Part shown: positions 2-43,205 of the stretch, piece by piece
Position numbering within the stretch: the stretch's first letter is position 1
Layout of the letters: each line of letters opens with the position of its first letter
Assembly (NCBI GenBank): GCA_021927905.1
Contig: BLLK01000025.1
Location: 124,001-188,000 of the forward strand
Direction of reading: 5' to 3'
Length of the DNA: 64,000 bases
From: Chaetoceros tenuissimus
Lineage: Eukaryota; Bacillariophyta; Thalassiosirophyceae; Chaetocerotales; Chaetocerotaceae
The notes under the pieces: generated by a model
The model's database searches: none
Told to the model about the DNA's origin: nothing
What the model saw: only the letters and a program-made list of their open reading frames with translations
Translations under genes and position numbers: made by a program

Positions 2-637
2 ATTGGGAATATTTCCATGCTTTCGAATGTGCATACGGGTTTTGTCCTGCTTTGGTCGATAAGATTGATTACATTTCTGTTACATAGGGAATTTATAAAT
101 TGGCCAGAATGGCATGCAAAAGTTAGGGAAGTGAATAGAAGAGGGAGCTTACAATCGAAATGTACGATATGGCTTACATGTAGTGCATTTTATTCTACAA
201 TGATATATCCATGTATGAAGAGGATAGTTAATGATGAGAAGACAGCAAAATGGACATTACTAGGTAAATCCGGTTTACTTCTACAATGCATCGGGCTGTT
301 AGTTGAAACAATTGCCGATTATCAAAAAGGAGAATTCAAAAGAATTAAGGGGAACAGAAATAAATTTTGCGACGTTGGTCTTTGGAGATTCTTTTCACAA
401 CCAAACTACCTAGGGGAAACTACCTTTTGGTTAGGTACTTACCTCGGAAGTCCCTTTAAATCATATTCTCCCAAAGACTGGCTCCTTTCATTGTGCGGTA
501 TAATTTTTATTTTTTCAGTGATGAAGAGTGCTACAACTTCAATTGAGGCAAAGCATGAAAAAAACTACCAGTCTGATGAGTCCTACTTGGAGCTTAGACA
601 AAGGCGAGGATTTTTCGGACCTATCTTGCCACTATAA
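2..637 (+). CDS. DUF1295 / steroid 5-alpha-reductase-like membrane protein, 3' part
   Basis: Multi-pass membrane protein of the DUF1295 family, related to steroid 5-alpha reductase and isoprenylcysteine methyltransferase folds. The frame is open to the left window edge and the first ATG (17) has no stop before it, so the gene probably starts outside the window. Visible are hydrophobic segments, a family-like stretch (VETIADYQK followed by FK), then the signature GLWRFFSQPNYLGE, where family members have a GLWR-SRHPNYFGE block, and a hydrophobic C-terminal segment. Those C-terminal residues are typical of NADPH-using or methyl-transferring membrane enzymes, but the substrate cannot be read from sequence. 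It converges on the TPH gene to its right. Family call is firm; specific activity is unknown. Confidence 0.75.
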   Translation: MGNISMLSNVHTGFVLLWSIRLITFLLHREFINWPEWHAKVREVNRRGSLQSKCTIWLTCSAFYSTMIYPCMKRIVNDEKTAKWTLLGKSGLLLQCIGLLVETIADYQKGEFKRIKGNRNKFCDVGLWRFFSQPNYLGETTFWLGTYLGSPFKSYSPKDWLLSLCGIIFIFSVMKSATTSIEAKHEKNYQSDESYLELRQRRGFFGPILPL

Positions 638-829
638 ATTGTTTAATCGTCAGAACAAGTATTCACTATTTCCTATCGCGTATTCTATCGATGGCAGAGT
701 AATATAGTTGTCCTCTTTCTTAGCTCCAAGTTATGCCTATATCAAGAAAGGAGAAAGAAAAGTAAAATGCAAATTACACAGAAAGTTCCGAGTCTTAATT
801 TTACAAGAAGATCTATTTGTTGAAGGCGT

Positions 830-2254
830 TTACATAGTTTTAATAAAGAAAGCTCTTGCTTCAACAAGGAGATCCTTATTTAAGCACCTTTCCATTTCAG
901 TCATCTCCGATGCAGAAGCAATCTTCTCCTTTTTCTTCTCAGAGTATTGCTCTTCCAAGCTTTTCCGATAAATGACCTTTGTATTTTTTATTCTTTGAGC
1001 TTCCTGTTTGGCTTCTTCATTAAACTTGGTCACTTCTTCTTCACACTTTTTGGCAAACAACTCATTCTCTGCTTTTTCTTGTCTATCAATTTGTTGCCTT
1101 TCCTCTACAATAGCTCTATTGGTGCGGTTAATTTCTTGTTGTTTTTCCTTCATTGCTTTCTTCCGCTTTATATCATCAAGCACCTGCATCTCTTCACGTT
1201 TCCTAGCTGCTTCAAGTAGCCCTTGCTCAAACTTTTTGTGCTCTTCTTTCTTCTTTTTGAAATTTGAATCCTCGTTCAACAATTTGGTATTCAACTCCAA
1301 GTTCTTCTTACGCGCTTCAAAAGCTTCTACTCTATTACGCTCTTTCCTATCTAAACGCTCTTTTAGGTCTTGCATCAGTTTAAAATCAATTTGAGCTTCT
1401 TGTAGCTTGGCCTTTTTTTTCTCCTCGAGCTTTTGTTTATTTTCTAACTTGATGGCCTCCCATTTCTTCTTTTCTTGTTCCTTTGCCAAGATTCTCTTTT
1501 GCTCTTCCTGTTTTAGAGCCTTTTCTACCTCTTCTAGCTCTTTTGTTTCCTGCTTTGTACGTTCATTCTTCATTTTCCGTCTCATGTTTTGTTTCTCCTC
1601 AATTTGAGCCAGACGAACCCCTTTCAACTTTTCAGATAGTTTCTTTTCTTCCTTGGCTTTCGAAATTTGTTCCTCTTTCCACTTTTGAACTGCTTCTTCT
1701 TGTTTTTTCACATACTGATCATTCTCAGCCTTTTCTCTGTTTGTTACCTCGCGTTTGAGACGAACCTGTTCGTCAAGGGCTGCAGCCATATTCTTTTTTC
1801 TCACTAGGGCAGTTTCAATTTCTTTTTCCTTTAATGCTTCATTTTTTTTAATTTTGTAATTTTCAATCAACAACCATGGATTCGAAATATTAATCTCTTT
1901 CTTTGCTAAATGCTGATCCTTTATTTCAAGAACAGGACAAGCTTCATTCTCTTTTTCGTTCATACGAGGAGAAGCTTCTAGTTTCTCTTTCGCAATGTTG
2001 GCTCTTGAAGCTACCTCAATGTTTTCAAGAGCAGGTTTGACAAATGACACCAACGATTGAACGTCACGCAAGGAAGTATTTATCACCAAAGACTTGTTTT
2101 GGTCAAGGAACGATTCCACAGTCTGTTTTACAACTCTCTTTGGATGAGAGCATTGCTTCGACAAAATTTGAACCAGTGCTTGCGAAAGTAAATTGCTCTT
2201 TTCACAGAGACTCTCGCGATCTTTGTAGAACTTTGCCTTTTCTTTCCTTTTCAT
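830..2254 (-). CDS. TPH-domain coiled-coil protein, flagellar/axonemal type
   Basis: A 474-aa protein with no intron. From about residue 130 to 465 it is almost continuous charged coiled coil rich in K, E, R and Q, with the motif style of trichohyalin/plectin-homology (TPH) proteins such as the CFAP45/CFAP53/MNS1 group, which line or fill ciliary doublet microtubules. The first 120 residues are less charged and helical. The ATG at 2254 is the first in frame. Long coiled coils resemble each other by composition, so the exact orthologue cannot be named. If it is axonemal, it fits an organism with a flagellated stage. It is divergent from the nucleotide cyclase, with about 264 bp between the starts. 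Confidence 0.6.
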   Translation of the reverse strand: MKRKEKAKFYKDRESLCEKSNLLSQALVQILSKQCSHPKRVVKQTVESFLDQNKSLVINTSLRDVQSLVSFVKPALENIEVASRANIAKEKLEASPRMNEKENEACPVLEIKDQHLAKKEINISNPWLLIENYKIKKNEALKEKEIETALVRKKNMAAALDEQVRLKREVTNREKAENDQYVKKQEEAVQKWKEEQISKAKEEKKLSEKLKGVRLAQIEEKQNMRRKMKNERTKQETKELEEVEKALKQEEQKRILAKEQEKKKWEAIKLENKQKLEEKKKAKLQEAQIDFKLMQDLKERLDRKERNRVEAFEARKKNLELNTKLLNEDSNFKKKKEEHKKFEQGLLEAARKREEMQVLDDIKRKKAMKEKQQEINRTNRAIVEERQQIDRQEKAENELFAKKCEEEVTKFNEEAKQEAQRIKNTKVIYRKSLEEQYSEKKKEKIASASEMTEMERCLNKDLLVEARAFFIKTM

Positions 2255-2518
2255 TTCCCCGAGAGTTTTCCAGATCTGAAAAAGTGACTGTGGATCAATG
2301 CAGATTGCAATTTGAAATATGGTTTATACTTGAAAGTTCCCTCCGTCTGCATTTGTGATCACAGCTACAAAAAGTGATTTGATTCGATTCCATTTTTACC
2401 GATACGTACAGTACCACTGTAACAATTTCCTTACTTCACCTCACCAAAGCCGCTTGTCACAACTCTAATATAACTGTCAAACATAACCATACTCTTGTCT
2501 TGAAAATGCAAGAAAAGG

Positions 2519-5336
2519 ATGCAACCACACATTAGGACTGTTTCAGCAGACCCTGGATTACTTAGTCATGAGGAGTTACTTGCTCAGCATGAGGGTGGGC
2601 GAAGACGAACATTGGAACAACTTATTGAAAAAAGTCGTGAACTTCACATTGAGAAGAAATCATGCAACATCCTGTGCAAGGAGAAAATAAAATGGTTTCT
2701 AGATACAGCTCGACTTCGAATATCCGTAAGTCCATTTCATTCCCTGCCAAAGTTTCGTATTTCTTCATTGCTCGACCTCTGATCTTTAATATTCCATCAG
2801 TATGATGACATCATGACCATTGCTACAATCTTTGTGCTGTTTGGTGATTGGGTGAGGATTTTATGCTTTTCTCCGGCGGCCGATTCTACATTTGCCGTTT
2901 TATACAATCTTGCATTCTTTTTGTTTGTGGCTGAATTGATATTGAATTGCTGGGCAAAAAGCGACTTTTCTGGAGGGATTTTTCGAGTCAAAGGATACAT
3001 GTTTAACTTTTTCTTCTGGTTAGATCTGCTATGTATTGTGTCCATGATTCCAGACTTGGGATGGGCTTCGTCTTTGATCGGAATGGATTCGTGGGCTTCT
3101 GGTGTAGGTGCAAAAGCGGGGAAAGCTGGAAAAATTGGAGCAAAGACAGGCCGTGTCGTGAGAATGGCCAGGCTTGTTCGGCTCGTGAAGCTTTACAAAA
3201 TTTCATCTCAAAGAAAACGAGAAAAGAAGTTGATTGAAGATTTAGGTAGACTTGTTGAATTGGGTCACATGGATCAACATGACATCGAAACATATCTAGA
3301 TAGAATGAATTCTTCCCAAAAACAAAGTAAGGTTGGGAGTGAGTTGTCTGATATCATAACAAGGAGAGTAATTATTGCTGTGCTCTTGATGCTTATGGTA
3401 GTTCCTCTCCTGTCGTACTCATCTTCTGCTCAAGACAATGTGCATGCGACAGAGTTTTTACAATCTATTAACATCAACACAGGTGTTGGTGACCAATCCA
3501 ATTGTCCGTACCTTGAAAGTGCGAGCTACCAGTTTACAGATTTCATGCAGAAGATGTTTGAAACAGCGACATCGGACTACAAATATCTATTGGAGTACAA
3601 GGTTGAACCTGAGAGATGCAATATTGTCAACGATTTGGATAATTATGATTCAACTGATTTTCGAGAAGGTGAATTGGAAAAAGTCATTCTCACTCAACAA
3701 GTTGGTGACATAGAATATGCAGTCACGGCTACTTACAATTTGAAATACATTTTGAAAAAAGAAGCCTTGGCAGGAATCTACCTCACGATATTTGTTGTAT
3801 TTATGTTGATTATGCTTTCTACTCAGTTCACTGGTGATGCTCAAAAGCTTGTCCTAGCTCCTATTGAAAGTATGATGGAAATGATTGATATGGTTGCGAG
3901 AGACCCTCTCGAAGACTTTGACTTTAGTGATATAGCAAGAACTGCCGAATATGAAACAAAGGTTGTTCAAGTGGCAATCCAAAAGATAACAGCGCTCCTT
4001 CGTCTAGGTTTCGGAGTGGCTGGAGCTGAAATTATTTCAACAAACATGGCTGTGGAGGGAGAAGGCAGCAATGTCCTAGAACCAATGATTCCTGGAAAAA
4101 GAATCTATGCAATTTTTGGTTTCTGTGATATTCATTCTTTTGACCTTTGTACTGAAAAACTTGAAGATGAAATCATGACGTTTGTAAATAGCGTGGCTAG
4201 AATTGTTCACGAAGAAGTTACAAGATGGGGTGGTCTGTGTAATAAAAATCTGGGCAACGCATTTTTGATGGTTTGGAGGATAGGAGATGAAAGTGCACTA
4301 CAAACTCTATCGGGAAGGCGAAGACGAAAGAGTCAGTTGAGCGGACTTGGAAATTCGAGACCTACCACACCAACAAGTCCATCGCTATCTTCAAGTGTTC
4401 GGAGTCTCACCGTTGACCTGCGACGAATTCCAGGTAAGTACAAGATTTCCAGTTTTTATATTGATGGACAATCAAGCCATTGGTCTCACATCTCTTCCAG
4501 GACTTGATATCATGGCCGACAAAGCATTGATTGGATTCTTGAAGGTCATTGTAGAAGTGAATAGAGATACACAGGTACTTGGATATAGAAATGATGCTCG
4601 TTTGGCTACATCATCTGGACCATTCCAATTGAGAATGGGTTTTGGGCTGCATGCTGGATGGGCAATTGAAGGAGCTGTTGGATCTCTCCAAAAAGTGGAT
4701 GCAACATACTTGTCTCCTCATGTCAACATGGCTGCGAGGATGGAGGCAGCTTCACGCCAATTCGGCGTGTCTATTTTGATGACAGAGCGATTTCAAGAGG
4801 TAAAAAGTTTATGTTTTTGTTTTTACTCCCTTGTATGTCCACATTTTCTTACAAGTTGCATCAAACCTTTCTAGCTCATGTCTTGTGAGGCCCAGGTTCA
4901 TTGTAGAAAGATTGACATTGTCACAGTGAAGGGGAGTTCTGTCCCAATGCCAATTTACACTTGCGACACTTATCAAGATCAAATATTCCCACTTTTGAAA
5001 TCTCCAAAGTTTAGTAATTTGGACATTTCCGAGATACTACGCAAACAAGCCGATGACTACGACACCTTGATTTGGGAAAACGACGAGGATCTTGTCCAAT
5101 TACGGTGTCTCACCACAGAAGAGTTTTTATCGAAGTTCAAGTCAGGCTTAAATTCATACTTGAGTGGCGACTGGCCAAAAGCAAGAGAACTTCTCAAAGA
5201 ATCGAATTCAATCATGAAAGAGGGAAATGGTATAGGCGACGGACCCAGCATGACCCTACTTTCATATATGGAAGAACTGGATTGGAAATGTCCAGATAAT
5301 TGGAAGGGATTCAGACCACTAACAAAGAAATCTTAA
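2519..5336 (+). CDS. Class III adenylate/guanylate cyclase with channel-like membrane domain
   Basis: Exons 2519..2725, 2801..4433, 4501..4799 and 4875..5336 join to 866 aa; all introns are GT-AG and frames agree. Residues 70-180 hold hydrophobic segments like S1-S4 of an ion-transport/voltage-sensor domain, including an R/K-rich helix (RMARLVRLVKL). A predicted outside loop between two further membrane segments follows (about 205-345), then a class III cyclase domain from about 500 to 720. Seen: first metal Asp D512 in FCDI, purine-site K551, ribose Asn N689 and transition-state Arg R693. The position of the second metal Asp is Asn (GN, residues 554-555). T682 lies seven residues before N689, giving the Lys/Thr pair known from sAC/CyaC-type adenylate cyclases. 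A helical C-terminal tail of about 120 residues follows. Product is probably cAMP, but activity is uncertain because of the missing Asp. Confidence 0.85.
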
Positions 5337-5412: not shown

Positions 5413-8400
5413 TTAGAAGTTAGTTCCCTTTTCTTTGTAATATTTTTCAATACTATATTCAACACCAGCCATAGTCAAGCGGATAGTCCCTTCGCCTTTG
5501 ATATTGTTTCTCAAAAAATAGCGCAATGAGTTCGATGTTGTTTCTTTGTATTCCTTTCCAAAATCGCTCTGAATAACCAGGCTCTGTGGGAGGCCTTCCA
5601 ATACAATTTCTTCCGTATCAAGGTTTGTAACTCTAAAGTGATATACTGCTATCGCTTTTCTCATAGCAATACGTTCCTCTGAACGAGTTCCCTTTTCTTT
5701 GTAATATTTTTCAATACTATATTCAACACCAGCAAAATTCAAGCGGATAGTCCCTTCGCCTTTGAGATTGTCTCTCAAAAAATTGAGCATTAACTTCGAT
5801 GTTGTTTCAGTATATTCCTTTCCAAAATCACTCTGAATAACCTGCTGTTGTGTGAAGCCTTCCAAAACAATTTCTTCCGTATCAAGGTTTGTAACTCTAA
5901 AGTGAAATACTGTTTTCGCTTCACTCATAGCAATACGTTGCTCCGGCGTCCTGTTTCTTCTATGTTTACTGCGGCCTCCTTGAATTGCAAGTATTCTCTG
6001 CTCTCGAGCCTCTGATGATAAACGCTTCCAGTGTTGCTTTAGCCCCATACTCATTCTTCGTTTTACTTCTTCCCTTTGAGCTTTAGTGAAAAGTGTCATT
6101 GACAATGCATCAAGGATCATATACATGGCTGCTCTATAATGCTTCGCATCGAATTCTTCTGAAGAAAAGTTACGATCCACACAAAGTAGGAACCTCTCGT
6201 AGACTATATCTGCTGTGATTCCATCATCCAACATACCCGCAGCACCCAATAATGTCGCAGTAACCTCGAGAGGCTGCTTCCACGAAATATTTAAACCGCG
6301 AGAAAATTTCATTGCGGTGGAATGAGGCATTTTCTTTCTAAGAATATCTTTATCCGCCTCAATTTGGATCATTTCCTCTCTTCCCAGAAGCTCCATGTGT
6401 TGTTTGGATCGGTGATCAATGTCGGCTTTGGAAAATGTGAGTATCAGAAACTTTGTACATGACAAGGAAAAGGAAATGTTCTTACCAATAACGTCAAGAC
6501 CTAGTTTCTCAATGGTCAATTGTATCATTTCCATCTGAGTCTCTTCAGCAACTATTGCAAGACGTTTATGCTTTTCAATTAAATCATCAAGGATTTGCTT
6601 ATCTTTTTTATTCAACTTTGGTCGAAACTTTTTGATATTGGTGACACACTTATGCTCTTTATGAATTGGATCCTGATCTCGAATGATTGTGGTGAGCCTT
6701 TTCTTGGTATCCGTCATGCGCAAATTGTGTGGGATATTTGATAATTTCTCGCCATAAAACTCTACCCCCTGCTGAGTAGTCTTGGACTCGTAACTTTTGT
6801 TTGTGTCTGGAAATGAATATCCAAGAACGACTGTCTCCTTGTCGCCTAACTGGCCGGTGGGTGGAGATGTAATGACTCCATGCTTCATGTATGTTCCAAG
6901 GGCTAAAGCAACGGCTCCAGTAAGTTGCAACATTTCATTTGTGAAGGAATTCTTCTCAGCCAAGCCTTCGAAAAGTTCCTTCATATGTTTTGGCACCTTC
7001 AGACCGGCCAAGTCCTCAGTACATTTATCTTTTCGCTCTTCCGGTGATAAATCAATGTCTTTGTTGGCTTCACTCCTGAAAGAGCCCCGACATTCCTGCA
7101 AATAATCTTCCGAAGTTTTTTCAATGTGGTCATGAGTTCTCTTCTCACCAGTACTAGGTGCTTCTGGCTCGTCTTCAATCAACAAGTTATCAATGACTCC
7201 CATGTTTTCGCTATTCTCAACCCTTTCGGCCTCGAGCTCTTCACGCACAGCATCAAGCTCTTCGTATGCAGCTTCAATCTCTTCATTCGCAACATCGAGC
7301 TCTTCATCAAGCTCTTCACATGTAGCATCGAACTCTCTGACTAGTTGCTTAACTTCTAACTTATGACTACGAGTGACGGATTTCATTTGGTTTTCATGCT
7401 CAGTTTCCAGCTCTTTGCGCACTTTGGATTCATAGTTGTCTTTGGTCCAAAACAATGTTTCCTCGAGCTCCTTTATTTCCGATTTGAATTGTTTCTTATT
7501 TTTCTCCAGAATATCTTTGCTCTCTTTTTTGCTATCCTCAAGGGCTTGGGTCAAATCGCTATTCTCTTTCCTAACTTGCTCTGACACAGCATTGGCTTGT
7601 TTCAACTTGGTTTCGAGAGAATTGATTTTCTTCTCTTTTATCTCCCTTGTTTCGTTACTCAAACGAACAAATGTGGAGATTTGAGCATTGATGTCTTTCT
7701 TCAAAGATACTATTTCACTGTGGAACAAACAGAATTGAGAAGAAAGATACAGTTGAATCTATGGAAAGCTGTAGGAACTTACGGACTGTCATTTTCGTTG
7801 ATTTGAAATTCAGATTCTGAGACGGCCTCTTTTTGAATTTTGTCAAGAGTAGCCTTGTGTTCCTTGCACCTTTTTCTATACTTCTTCAATGTCTTAGCGA
7901 CATCCATGGAGATAACTAGACTTTCGATTGATTCATTACGGCTGATGTTGTTGAATTCATCGATTTTGTTCGCAACAGGAAGACGTTGTTTAGACTCTAG
8001 CTCTTTTACTCTTTTCTTCAGCTTTTCATTTTCTTCGAGTAGAGAGTTGTTCGAGTTGGAAGAACTACTCGATACAGTTGATGGTGAGGATACATATGGC
8101 ACCAAATTCGAAGAGCCATGATGCTCTGCAATGTAATCCTTCAATGCTGAGATTTGAAATCCAATTGGATTATGGATCTGGCCTCGGCAATTCTTTACTC
8201 TGAGATGAATGACTGGGGTAGATTTTAGACTTATTGAACAAAGACATTGGACTTAAAAGGAAAAGTGAAAAGACTTACACTGTAGAGCTTTCAACAATGC
8301 TGATGGTATTGATACAATGCATTCGACTCTGTTTCTGAAGTTAACATGTTGAGAAAGATGAACAAGAAGATTAATGATTTCAAAGTCAGGCGGCTGTTGT

Positions 8401-35578: not shown

Positions 35579-36667
35579 TTAAGAAAAGCAAGTAATGAAT
35601 ACCATAATAATAGTAATAACAATGAAAACAAAGAAAACATTTAGATACATAGATATATATATACTATAAAATCTAAGTAATACATAATATGAGTGCTTTA
35701 ATTTGTAGGTAGGTTCACTCTAACAACTCTACGTACATGTTGTGACCAAGAGCAAGATATCATGACAAAAGACAAGCTACTAGCAGCTACTGGCATGACC
35801 ATCTTTACCTTTTATCACATGCGTCAGCATTACAGTAATGCCATTTTTAGGCCTTTATTGCAGTCCGTTGAAAGTCTTTACGAGTAAATACAAGTAAAAT
35901 CAAAGATGCAACAACGTAAGCTGAATGCCAGCTGTTGGAGCAGACTGAAAGGTGGCACGATTTAGTCGTTTTAAATTTTGGCGCCCTTATTTTGGACTTG
36001 ACGCTTGGAGGGGGGCAAGAGTGATTCTACCCCTAGAGACAATATTTGTTTTTTGTGTAGAAAGATACCAGGGTCTACGTGAATAATCTCAGTATAGAAG
36101 TGGGAATAGGTTTTGAGATTTATTATCCCTGTCAATGTGAAATATAATTTCCTCTCTGTGATTGGCTGATGAGGCCATGGTGAGATGGACAGACGCTCCT
36201 ATCACTCACCAACCCGGAGGAATTGTTCTTTTTGCCTTTTCGCGCCAAAAGTTTTATCGCTACGAAAGATTTCCAAAGGTGGCTCTGCTCATAAAAAATC
36301 ATAAATCGCATTTGTGAACACATTTACTATCCAACCCATCAAAACATAATCAAGATATAACAATGAAGTTCAACAAGACCCTCAATGAATCTATCCTTAA
36401 GGAATGGAAGTTCTATTCTGTAGACTACAAGGCAATGAAGCAAGCATTGAAAGACAATGGCTCAGGAATGAATACTGAAGAATACTTTGAGCAGTATGAA
36501 CTATCCAAGAAGAAACTCACCAAGTTCTACACAGATAAAGAAAAGTGGGCAGTTGCTTACTATGACAAGATGAAAGAATCTGTAGAAGAGCTTAGAGCCA
36601 TGAAGGTGACCTCAAGACCAAGTATGGCTGATACTACTGCTATCTCCAACTCTGATGAATCTGAGAG
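35579..36667 (+). repeat. 1,089-bp direct repeat, left copy
   Basis: Matches 41168..42256 at a constant offset of 5,589 bp with no indel that I could find and only about four substitutions (for example near 35595, 35609, 35624 and 36164). It covers the promoter, 5' UTR and first 305 bp of coding sequence of the SPX-cytidylyltransferase gene. Homology stops abruptly after GATGAATCTGAGAG on the right and before TTAAGAAAAG on the left. Confidence 0.92.
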
Positions 36668-36692
36668 CAACCCAATGTCAACTAAAAATTGA
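36363..36692 (+). pseudogene. Truncated copy of the SPX-cytidylyltransferase gene
   Basis: The first 101 codons are essentially identical to the intact gene at 41952, then unrelated sequence adds eight residues and a stop (109 aa). Only the N-terminal helices of the SPX domain (MKFNKTLNESILKEWKFYSVDYK) remain; the later SPX helices and the catalytic domain are absent. Because the promoter is duplicated too, it may still be transcribed. Confidence 0.85.
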
Positions 36693-41011: not shown

Positions 41012-41564
41012 GTAGATATGAAAATGAGACAAGTAGACTTCTTTTTGCATGGGGACTGAAGAAGTACTTGTGAAGTAGCATGGTTGGGGACTGAAGATGT
41101 TCTTGTGAAGTATGAAGTTACGATGATATTAGTATATGCGCTTATTTGGGAATAGGAGATTCTTTTATTAAGAAAAGCAAGTAATAAATACCATAATAAA
41201 AGTAATAACAACGAAAACAAAGAAAACATTTAGATACATAGATATATATATACTATAAAATCTAAGTAATACATAATATGAGTGCTTTAATTTGTAGGTA
41301 GGTTCACTCTAACAACTCTACGTACATGTTGTGACCAAGAGCAAGATATCATGACAAAAGACAAGCTACTAGCAGCTACTGGCATGACCATCTTTACCTT
41401 TTATCACATGCGTCAGCATTACAGTAATGCCATTTTTAGGCCTTTATTGCAGTCCGTTGAAAGTCTTTACGAGTAAATACAAGTAAAATCAAAGATGCAA
41501 CAACGTAAGCTGAATGCCAGCTGTTGGAGCAGACTGAAAGGTGGCACGATTTAGTCGTTTTAAA

Positions 41565-41574
41565 TTTTGGCGCC
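41565..41574. promoter_or_regulatory. E2F-like site TTTTGGCGCC
   Basis: E2F/DP consensus (TTTSGCGC) about 380 bp upstream of the SPX-cytidylyltransferase start; also present at 35976 in the left copy. Role inferred. Confidence 0.35.
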
Positions 41575-41825
41575 CTTATTTTGGACTTGACGCTTGGAGG
41601 GGGGCAAGAGTGATTCTACCCCTAGAGACAATATTTGTTTTTTGTGTAGAAAGATACCAGGGTCTACGTGAATAATCTCAGTATAGAAGTGGGAATAGGT
41701 TTTGAGATTTATTATCCCTGTCAATGTGAAATATAATTTCCTCTCTGTGATTTGCTGATGAGGCCATGGTGAGATGGACAGACGCTCCTATCACTCACCA
41801 ACCCGGAGGAATTGTTCTTTTTGCC

Positions 41826-41839
41826 TTTTCGCGCCAAAA
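41826..41839. promoter_or_regulatory. E2F-like palindrome TTTTCGCGCCAAAA
   Basis: A near-perfect palindromic E2F/DP site 113 bp upstream of the SPX-cytidylyltransferase ATG; same site at 36237 in the left copy. It suggests cell-cycle-linked transcription of a phospholipid gene, which is an inference. Confidence 0.45.
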
Positions 41840-41951
41840 GTTTTATCGCTACGAAAGATTTCCAAAGGTGGCTCTGCTCATAAAAAATCATAAATCGCAT
41901 TTGTGAACACATTTACTATCCAACCCATCAAAACATAATCAAGATATAACA

Positions 41952-43205
41952 ATGAAGTTCAACAAGACCCTCAATGAATCTATCCTTAAGGAATGGAAGT
42001 TCTATTCTGTAGACTACAAGGCAATGAAGCAAGCATTGAAAGACAATGGCTCAGGAATGAATACTGAAGAATACTTTGAGCAGTATGAACTATCCAAGAA
42101 GAAACTCACCAAGTTCTACACAGATAAAGAAAAGTGGGCAGTTGCTTACTATGACAAGATGAAAGAATCTGTAGAAGAGCTTAGAGCCATGAAGGTGACC
42201 TCAAGACCAAGTATGGCTGATACTACTGCTATCTCCAACTCTGATGAATCTGAGAGTGACAACGAGTCCAATTGCCCATCTGACAATGACAACGTTGTAT
42301 TCGACATTGATGCAATGAACAACAGCGATTCTTTCTCTGACAGTGAAAACGAGGAAGCACCAGCCAAGACCACTGACCACGAATTCCTCAAACAAGAATA
42401 CCGTCGTGTAGGAAGATCCAACCACTTCCAGAAGTACATCTACGCCAAGAAGTCACTCGATACCTTTGCTCGTGAGCTCGACCTTGTACTCGACTTCCTT
42501 TTCTTGAACCAGACTGCATTCAGCAAGATTCTCAAGAAATTTGACAAGAGAACTGGATCCTCTATCCGTCAAGAGAAACTAGCAGAGCTCTCTGAGTCCC
42601 ATGGCTTCCTCAATGGAGAGAAGATGACGGAGCTTAGAGAAGGAGTCTCATCCATGATTGATGTTGTATCTCGATGCAAGCCTGTCCTTCCAGAAGGATG
42701 GGAAACAAGAAAGGTATACACCATTGGATGCTTCGACTTGTTCCATCGTGGACATCAAAATGCACTCATGGCTCTTCGTGAGTTTGGGTATTTCATTGTT
42801 GCTGGTATTCACGATGATGAGAGTTACTTCAAGTTGAAGAATAAGTACACTATTGACAACCTTGAGCAACGAATGGCAAATGTCAAGCCATATGTTGATC
42901 AATTGTACGTCATTCCATCTACTGATCCTACCTTTTCTCTCCAATGCATGACTTCTGAGCAAGATATTGAGACTGGATCATGCTGCTACGCTCGTGGAGA
43001 TGATATGTTGAATTTTCCAGGAAGAGAGTGGGTAGAGTCAGTCATGCCTGTCCACTTTATTCCAAGAACTGAGGACTGCAGCTCCAGTCTCCTTAGAACA
43101 ATCTACCATGCTGAGGACCCAGAGATTAGAAAGAAGGCTGCTTTCGCTCAGACAAGATACGATGGAAAGCCAATCGATGCAGATGGAAATGTAATCAAGG
43201 GATAA
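41952..43205 (+). CDS. SPX-domain cytidylyltransferase (phospholipid synthesis type)
   Basis: Single exon, 417 aa. Residues 1 to about 200 form an SPX domain: MKFNKTLNESILKEWKFYSVDYK at the start, an acidic Ser-rich insertion (about 95-135), then YIYAKKSLDTFARELDLVLDFLFLN with the basic helices that bind inositol pyrophosphates. Residues about 255-400 are a CTP-dependent nucleotidyltransferase: VYTIGCFDLFHRGH with the catalytic HxGH (H265, H268), and RTEDCSSSLL corresponding to the RTEGIST-type loop. It should make a CDP-alcohol; closest in style to phosphoethanolamine/phosphocholine cytidylyltransferases, exact substrate unknown. SPX fusion suggests control by phosphate status. The 5' end and promoter are duplicated 5.6 kb upstream. 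Confidence 0.85.
   Translation: MKFNKTLNESILKEWKFYSVDYKAMKQALKDNGSGMNTEEYFEQYELSKKKLTKFYTDKEKWAVAYYDKMKESVEELRAMKVTSRPSMADTTAISNSDESESDNESNCPSDNDNVVFDIDAMNNSDSFSDSENEEAPAKTTDHEFLKQEYRRVGRSNHFQKYIYAKKSLDTFARELDLVLDFLFLNQTAFSKILKKFDKRTGSSIRQEKLAELSESHGFLNGEKMTELREGVSSMIDVVSRCKPVLPEGWETRKVYTIGCFDLFHRGHQNALMALREFGYFIVAGIHDDESYFKLKNKYTIDNLEQRMANVKPYVDQLYVIPSTDPTFSLQCMTSEQDIETGSCCYARGDDMLNFPGREWVESVMPVHFIPRTEDCSSSLLRTIYHAEDPEIRKKAAFAQTRYDGKPIDADGNVIKG

Follow-up and report, generated by a model that had tools for sequence, protein, structure and literature searches.

Does a single polypeptide read the phosphate status of the cell and adjust the formation of an activated alcohol accordingly? This question is raised by a gene in the 64-kb window, that is the whole stretch of DNA analyzed here, for which an earlier note had proposed an SPX sensor fused to a phospholipid-type cytidylyltransferase. 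Gene and product are termed SPX-CT (SPX-cytidylyltransferase) in the following. The genome to which the window belongs (41.0 Mb, 68 contigs) was searched as a whole, and 11 matches to silicon transporters (best E 2.3e-211) make it most likely that of a diatom.

The SPX-CT gene and its duplicated 5' part

SPX-CT is encoded by a single exon (41952..43205, plus strand, 417 amino acids) that runs from ATG to TAA over 417 codons without intron or internal stop; the 16th codon 5' of the ATG is an in-frame stop. The domain search proposed in the earlier note returned the Pfam SPX family (PF03105) with 67.7 bits against a cut-off of 27.8 (E 2.5e-18) in two stretches, the best of which covers residues 38-208. 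CTP_transf_like (PF01467) is matched in a single stretch, residues 256-375, with 40.9 bits against a cut-off of 21 (E 2.8e-10). Both matches are far above chance. As read from the DNA sequence, an SPX domain and a cytidylyltransferase-like domain are present in one reading frame and one uninterrupted exon. The proposed fusion is thus borne out by two domains that exceed their cut-offs in the same frame, and the contention that it is not a gene-model artefact appears sound given the single open exon.

An artefact of assembly or gene modelling is highly improbable for further reasons. It is true that the setting is prone to assembly errors, as a near-identical repeat of 1,089 bp ends within the SPX-CT gene and its other copy is located 5.6 kb away. 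However, the repeat stops at codon 102, well 5' of the junction between the two domains (approximately residues 242-252), the frame is open throughout and residues 131-417 find a high-identity match at this one place only when the genome itself is searched. Since the repeat ends so far before the junction, it does not threaten the fusion.

The two copies of the repeat are direct and 99.63% identical. One of them (41168..42256, plus strand) spans the upstream region of SPX-CT together with its codons 1-101 and a further two bases from codon 102, the other is found at 35579..36667 (plus strand), and their four mismatches are all located upstream of the ATG. The duplication is very recent. The second copy gives rise to a truncated open reading frame of 109 amino acids (36363..36692, plus strand) which is the same as SPX-CT over residues 1-102, continues with seven unrelated residues and lacks both the lysine helix described below and the enzyme domain; its Pfam SPX score of 28.8 barely exceeds the cut-off of 27.8. 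The truncated copy is preceded by CAACTCCAATG and directly followed by CAACCCAATG, an imperfect CAAC(T)CCAATG direct repeat. These flanks resemble an imperfect target-site duplication, in which case the truncated copy would be the younger one, but the resemblance could be due to chance. The motif GNATATNC, which we take to be P1BS, occurs 26 times in the window, and its nearest occurrence upstream of SPX-CT is at 41132. Elsewhere in the window, two adjacent direct repeats of 258 bp (5422-5943) are 89% identical.

The SPX domain and related proteins of the same genome

The SPX domain was taken to comprise residues 1-242 (41952..42677, plus strand), limits that we set ourselves; Pfam reports two separate stretches. 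With phmmer, yeast Vtc4 aligns without gaps to residues 1-37 and again from residue 179 through the lysine helix; taken singly, the two matches are weak (12.3 and 12.4 bits), and in combination they reach 23.9 bits (E 1.8e-4). According to the available sections of PMC9911596, the ligand residues of Vtc4 are Y22, K26 and K133 in a phosphate binding cluster and K129, K132 and K136 in a lysine surface cluster. In the alignment six out of six are kept in SPX-CT: Y22, K26 and K196 correspond to the first cluster and K192, K195 and K199 to the second. The segment from Y22 to K26 (42015..42029, plus strand) aligns with Y22 and K26 of Vtc4, and the helix K192-ILKKFD-K199 (42525..42548, plus strand) aligns with Vtc4 K129, K132, K133 and K136. 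The earlier note had staked its proposal on the lysines of the phosphate-binding surface, and with all six ligand residues in place the proposal appears, at the level of sequence, to have passed its own test. Within the SPX domain, residues 83-143 (42198..42380, plus strand) form an acidic, Ser/Asn-rich loop with 16 D/E and 12 S among 61 residues, including SDESESDNES and SDSFSDSENEE. Acidic serine-rich stretches of this kind are used by casein kinase 2 and for PP-InsP pyrophosphorylation.

Fold comparison of this part was done on a low-confidence model of residues 1-242 computed alone from the single sequence (pLDDT 56.9). Foldseek returned no match for it at E <= 0.001, the best row being Vtc4 at 0.05. 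With VIA-align, SPX proteins fill the top 12 rows (Z 12.6-11.4, rmsd 2.6-4.5, 140-160 aligned residues), yet row 13, the unrelated helical protein STAT2 (Z 11.3), ties with them and all rows fall below the caution level of the tool for helical bundles. We therefore regard the fold matches as support for an SPX bundle and not as proof. A search of viral structures contained no row named as an SPX protein among the best 50 of 177.

The SPX search of the genome yielded at least eight matches that were assigned to seven genes including SPX-CT. The others encode an SPX-EXS protein (Pfam), an SPX-VTC protein with DUF202 (L005), SPX alone in the frame scanned (L004), two proteins combining SPX with multi-pass membrane regions that are MFS-like by eye and without Pfam match there at 0.01 (L002, L006), and an SPX-protein kinase (L003; G000:C44:1200500-1204500, about 487-2654, minus strand; Pkinase E 2.6e-20, SPX E 2.2e-7). 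The kinase gene, which has a short first exon (MKFGRTLSEKIREEW...), constitutes a second SPX-enzyme fusion in this genome. Its SPX part is the nearest distinct paralogue of that in SPX-CT (49% over SPX-CT residues 166-233). Five additional loci (L029-L033, on C32, C58, C33, C27 and C34) resemble the end of the SPX domain of SPX-CT with E values from 4e-4 to 0.15, share the tail L-x2-L-x5-F-x2-G with it and gave no Pfam match at E 0.01. In contrast to SPX-CT, the position of K196 is occupied by A or E in all five (alignment, by eye), and they possibly represent a family of ligand-blind SPX-like proteins.

The cytidylyltransferase-like domain and its relatives

The enzyme domain (residues 251-391; 42702..43124, plus strand) is supported by Pfam, PDB sequence matches, the structural model and fold comparison. 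Both motifs that had been claimed for it are found. The HxGH motif is present as FHRGH at residues 264-268 (HRGH, residues 265-268, 42744..42755, plus strand; sequence and bacterial alignment), and what had been described as RTE-S-S is PRTEDCSSS at residues 371-379 (43062..43088, plus strand), a variant of the PRTEGISTT signature. Further landmarks are K294-x-K296, R307 and G349-D-D351. A scan of genome contigs with an alignment of the domain found 17 loci, all bacterial, for which the matched frame alone was read; 16 of them were used for comparison, as the printed stretch of L026 is identical to that of L025. G259, D262, H265, H268, K296, R307 and D351 are among ten columns that are invariant between SPX-CT and these 16 relatives. 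RTE and the serines are retained, while the G(I/V)ST of most relatives is replaced by DCSS, such that the RTEG(I/V)ST signature of the Kennedy-pathway enzymes ECT and CCT is absent. This mismatch carries little weight, because the signatures of two other domains of the same genome (PYYQDLSTT in L008 and PRHDGLSTS in L009) also deviate, as does that of the second ECT half. In the alignments, SPX-CT has two residues fewer ahead of YVD than its relatives and a longer loop ahead of GDD.

An AF2 model of the full-length protein (pTM 0.51) is of low confidence for residues 1-20 and 83-140, with pLDDT below 50 over residues 90-140, and reaches pLDDT values of 70-91 in the blocks of residues 251-390. 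In PDB sequence comparisons with the enzyme domain alone, the best match is human ECT (E 3.9e-16, 62.6 bits), which is hit in both of its halves, followed by GCT (6.1e-6, 29.4 bits) and CCT (2.6e-4). The first Foldseek rows are mammalian CCT (9.6e-6) and human ECT (1.7e-5), and GCT is best by target TM-score (0.81). VIA-align places Fom1 CyTase (5x3d) highest (Z 14.2, rmsd 2.1, 116 aligned), followed by B. subtilis GCT (Z 13.3, rmsd 2.2, 124 aligned), 3glv (Z 12.9), human ECT (Z 12.4, rmsd 2.6, 135 aligned) and mammalian CCT (Z 12.4-12.0, rmsd 2.9, 136-138 aligned), with phosphopantetheine adenylyltransferases just lower (Z 11.9). Steps of less than one Z unit were counted as ties and the Foldseek and VIA-align rankings differ; structure accordingly picks no substrate. 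Among the 15 NCBIfam families listed, only the domain model TIGR00125 exceeds its cut-off (40 versus 27.7); the other 14 stay below, including the GCT equivalog TIGR01518 with 27 bits versus 165.4. With its Pfam match, HxGH motif and fold, SPX-CT is a member of the cytidylyltransferase-like superfamily.

Phylogeny, in trees that contained neither human ECT nor CCT, was tried as a guide to the substrate and rejected as evidence, since the SPX-CT domain joins a different long branch each time. In a tree with 22 rows its end branch exceeds all others (7.31 changes per column) and it groups with GCT without support (20/7); when GCT is left out, it groups with L020 instead (48/40), again as one of two long branches (end branch 6.93). 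Holding it together with the four ECT/CCT-type domains of its own genome gave a p-AU of 0.245 and with the two ECT halves 0.126, such that a grouping with these domains is neither shown nor rejected.

At least six matches to the CTP_transf_like family were found in the genome, including SPX-CT itself. L007 encodes a canonical ECT that comprises both cytidylyltransferase halves (human ECT match 194 bits, E 9.2e-57). L008 (G000:C32:2620500-2625500, 726-2468, plus strand) contains a LicD-like region (E 4e-4, 21 bits, below the Pfam cut-off of 22.6) and a cytidylyltransferase domain (human ECT 116.9 bits, E 6.3e-33) in one frame, and is itself an unusual fusion around phospho-alcohol transfer. In L009 (G000:C34:2797500-2801000, minus strand, two exons joined by eye), a membrane region that resembles a CDP-alcohol phosphotransferase by eye, without Pfam match at E 0.01, is followed by a cytidylyltransferase domain (human ECT 114 bits, E 4.4e-32); this protein possibly combines two successive steps of lipid synthesis. 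L010 and L011 have Pfam CTP_transf_like matches and are adenylyltransferase-like by eye. SPX-CT therefore adds a further, far more diverged enzyme to this set, and ECT/CCT-type chemistry has other candidates in this organism. The phospholipid-type character and the CDP-ethanolamine/choline specificity that the earlier note had assigned to SPX-CT are not established, as the domain is highly diverged and found no secure place in two trees, and the genome encodes a canonical ECT and two more ECT/CCT-like domains with stronger matches to human ECT.

A putative phosphate-gated cytidylyltransferase

We consider it about an even chance (probability around 0.5) that SPX-CT is a CTP:phospho-alcohol cytidylyltransferase whose activity is gated by the attached sensor for inositol pyrophosphate. 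With ample phosphate, PP-InsP (InsP7/InsP8) would dock on the basic surface of the SPX domain and alter how the SPX bundle packs on the catalytic domain, where HRGH, K296, GDD and RTE would serve to transfer the CMP moiety of CTP onto a small phospho-alcohol. A drop in phosphate would lower PP-InsP and bring the reaction to a halt. We infer that SPX-CT binds PP-InsP and that binding affects its activity; activation as the sign of control is suggested by analogy to Vtc4, since the available part of PMC9911596 states that the VTC complex is stimulated by InsP6. In the AF2 model, about a dozen residues separate the final SPX helix (H222-241) from the beginning of the enzyme domain (E254-258), a distance over which a change in the bundle could reach the enzyme. 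The genome may provide the ligand, as it contains matches to the PPIP5K2_N (E 9.0e-29) and IPK (E 1.8e-43) families. Control of this kind would be physiologically sensible, because CDP-choline declines in fission yeast under phosphate starvation (PMC11980565, section available). The acceptor may be phosphoethanolamine, glycerol-3-phosphate, 2-aminoethylphosphonate or a similar compound. Against the gated enzyme speak the extreme divergence of the catalytic domain, its altered loops and its DCSS signature, all of which would also fit a dead enzyme, as well as the weakness of each single Vtc4 match, the low pTM of the full-length model and the tie of STAT2 with SPX rows. More tentatively, and in our estimation with clearly less than even odds, the one-polypeptide switch envisaged in the earlier note might consist in PP-InsP directly gating the formation of a CDP-alcohol or a CMP-phosphonate, with an acceptor that may lie outside the Kennedy pathway, given that other loci of the genome already encode ECT/CCT-type domains.

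A more restricted version of this gated enzyme, contained within the main reading, would be a Kennedy-pathway enzyme for phosphoethanolamine or phosphocholine, that is an extra ECT or CCT by which phosphate status throttles phospholipid synthesis. It would account for human ECT being the best PDB sequence match in both halves, for mammalian CCT and human ECT heading the Foldseek rows and for the resemblance, by eye, of FPGREWVES in SPX-CT to VNGKDVYES in the ECT of the same genome, and it agrees with a grouping that was not rejected at a p-AU of 0.245. We nevertheless hold it to be rather unlikely. The match to human ECT amounts to 62.6 bits as opposed to 194 bits for the organism's own ECT and 114 and 116.9 bits for two other domains, the two-domain layout is missing, and Fom1 and GCT rank slightly above ECT and CCT by VIA-align. 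Moreover, the W and Y of the PW-T and DDIPY stretches, which have a role in CCT, lack a clear counterpart by eye.

A catalytically dead enzyme domain, serving as a nucleotide-binding or dimerization module of an SPX signalling protein, would fit the very long branch, the altered signature and the shortened stretch before YVD, but it is improbable given that HRGH, K-x-K, GDD and RTE with the following serines have been kept despite the divergence. Conversely, instead of switching the enzyme in response to PP-InsP, the SPX part could be a module for protein interaction or degradation, much as rice SPX1 exerts its effect through binding to the transcription factor PHR2 (PMC8639918, in the part available). 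Retention of six out of six ligand residues and the close succession of the last SPX helix and the enzyme domain in the AF2 model render this quite improbable.

Among known systems, Vtc4 likewise joins an N-terminal SPX domain, in which the same six ligand residues occur, to an enzyme (PMC9911596, available sections), but that enzyme belongs to a membrane complex and is a TTM polymerase instead of a nucleotidyltransferase, and the genome has its own SPX-VTC protein in L005. ECT/PCYT2 shares HxGH and RTE with SPX-CT and possesses two tandem cytidylyltransferase domains, whereas SPX-CT has a single, diverged one together with SPX. GCT (1coz, 2b7l) and Fom1 CyTase (5x3d), the highest VIA-align rows (Z 13.2-14.2), are like the enzyme part in being compact single domains of about 115-126 residues, and differ from SPX-CT in lacking SPX. 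In Gde1, an SPX-glycerophosphodiester phosphodiesterase, SPX is attached to an enzyme of phospholipid metabolism; the SPX domain of CtGde1 (5ijj) aligns to the low-confidence SPX-only model with Z 10.4 (rmsd 3.0, 136 aligned, VIA-align). Gde1 degrades glycerophosphodiesters, while SPX-CT would make a CDP-alcohol. PtSPX of the diatom Phaeodactylum tricornutum (Phatr3_J47434) is involved in phosphate control and consists of SPX only, for which action via the regulator PHR is proposed (PMC8233357, portion available), whereas SPX-CT carries an enzyme domain.

We found no description of an SPX-cytidylyltransferase fusion in the open-access literature. One paper that covers SPX domains mentions only MCT of the MEP pathway as a cytidylyltransferase, and in PMC11980565 SPX appears a single time, within the title of a reference. 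Six SPX genes are given for P. tricornutum (PMC8233357) and the SPX, EXS, MFS and RING kinds for plants (PMC13153306), and the available portions of these sources name no cytidylyltransferase among the kinds of SPX protein. Scans of viral contigs with the whole of SPX-CT, the cytidylyltransferase alignment and an alignment of the SPX helices produced 0 confirmed loci, tblastn of phages with the cytidylyltransferase domain gave 14 records (best E 9e-7) with nothing informative on the fusion, and PADLOC gave no match.

SPX-enzyme fusions are already a known kind, as exemplified by Vtc4, and Gde1 is another. Diatoms remodel their phospholipids under phosphate limitation. Control of this remodelling is ascribed, in the available part of PMC12396336, to the transcription factor PSR1 and non-coding RNAs. 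If the main reading is true, SPX-CT would add another enzyme type to the SPX fusions with polyphosphate polymerase and glycerophosphodiesterase. An SPX-gated cytidylyltransferase would connect PP-InsP directly with a biosynthetic step, and the diatom would gain a brake on phosphorus-costly head-group chemistry that acts at once and without transcription.
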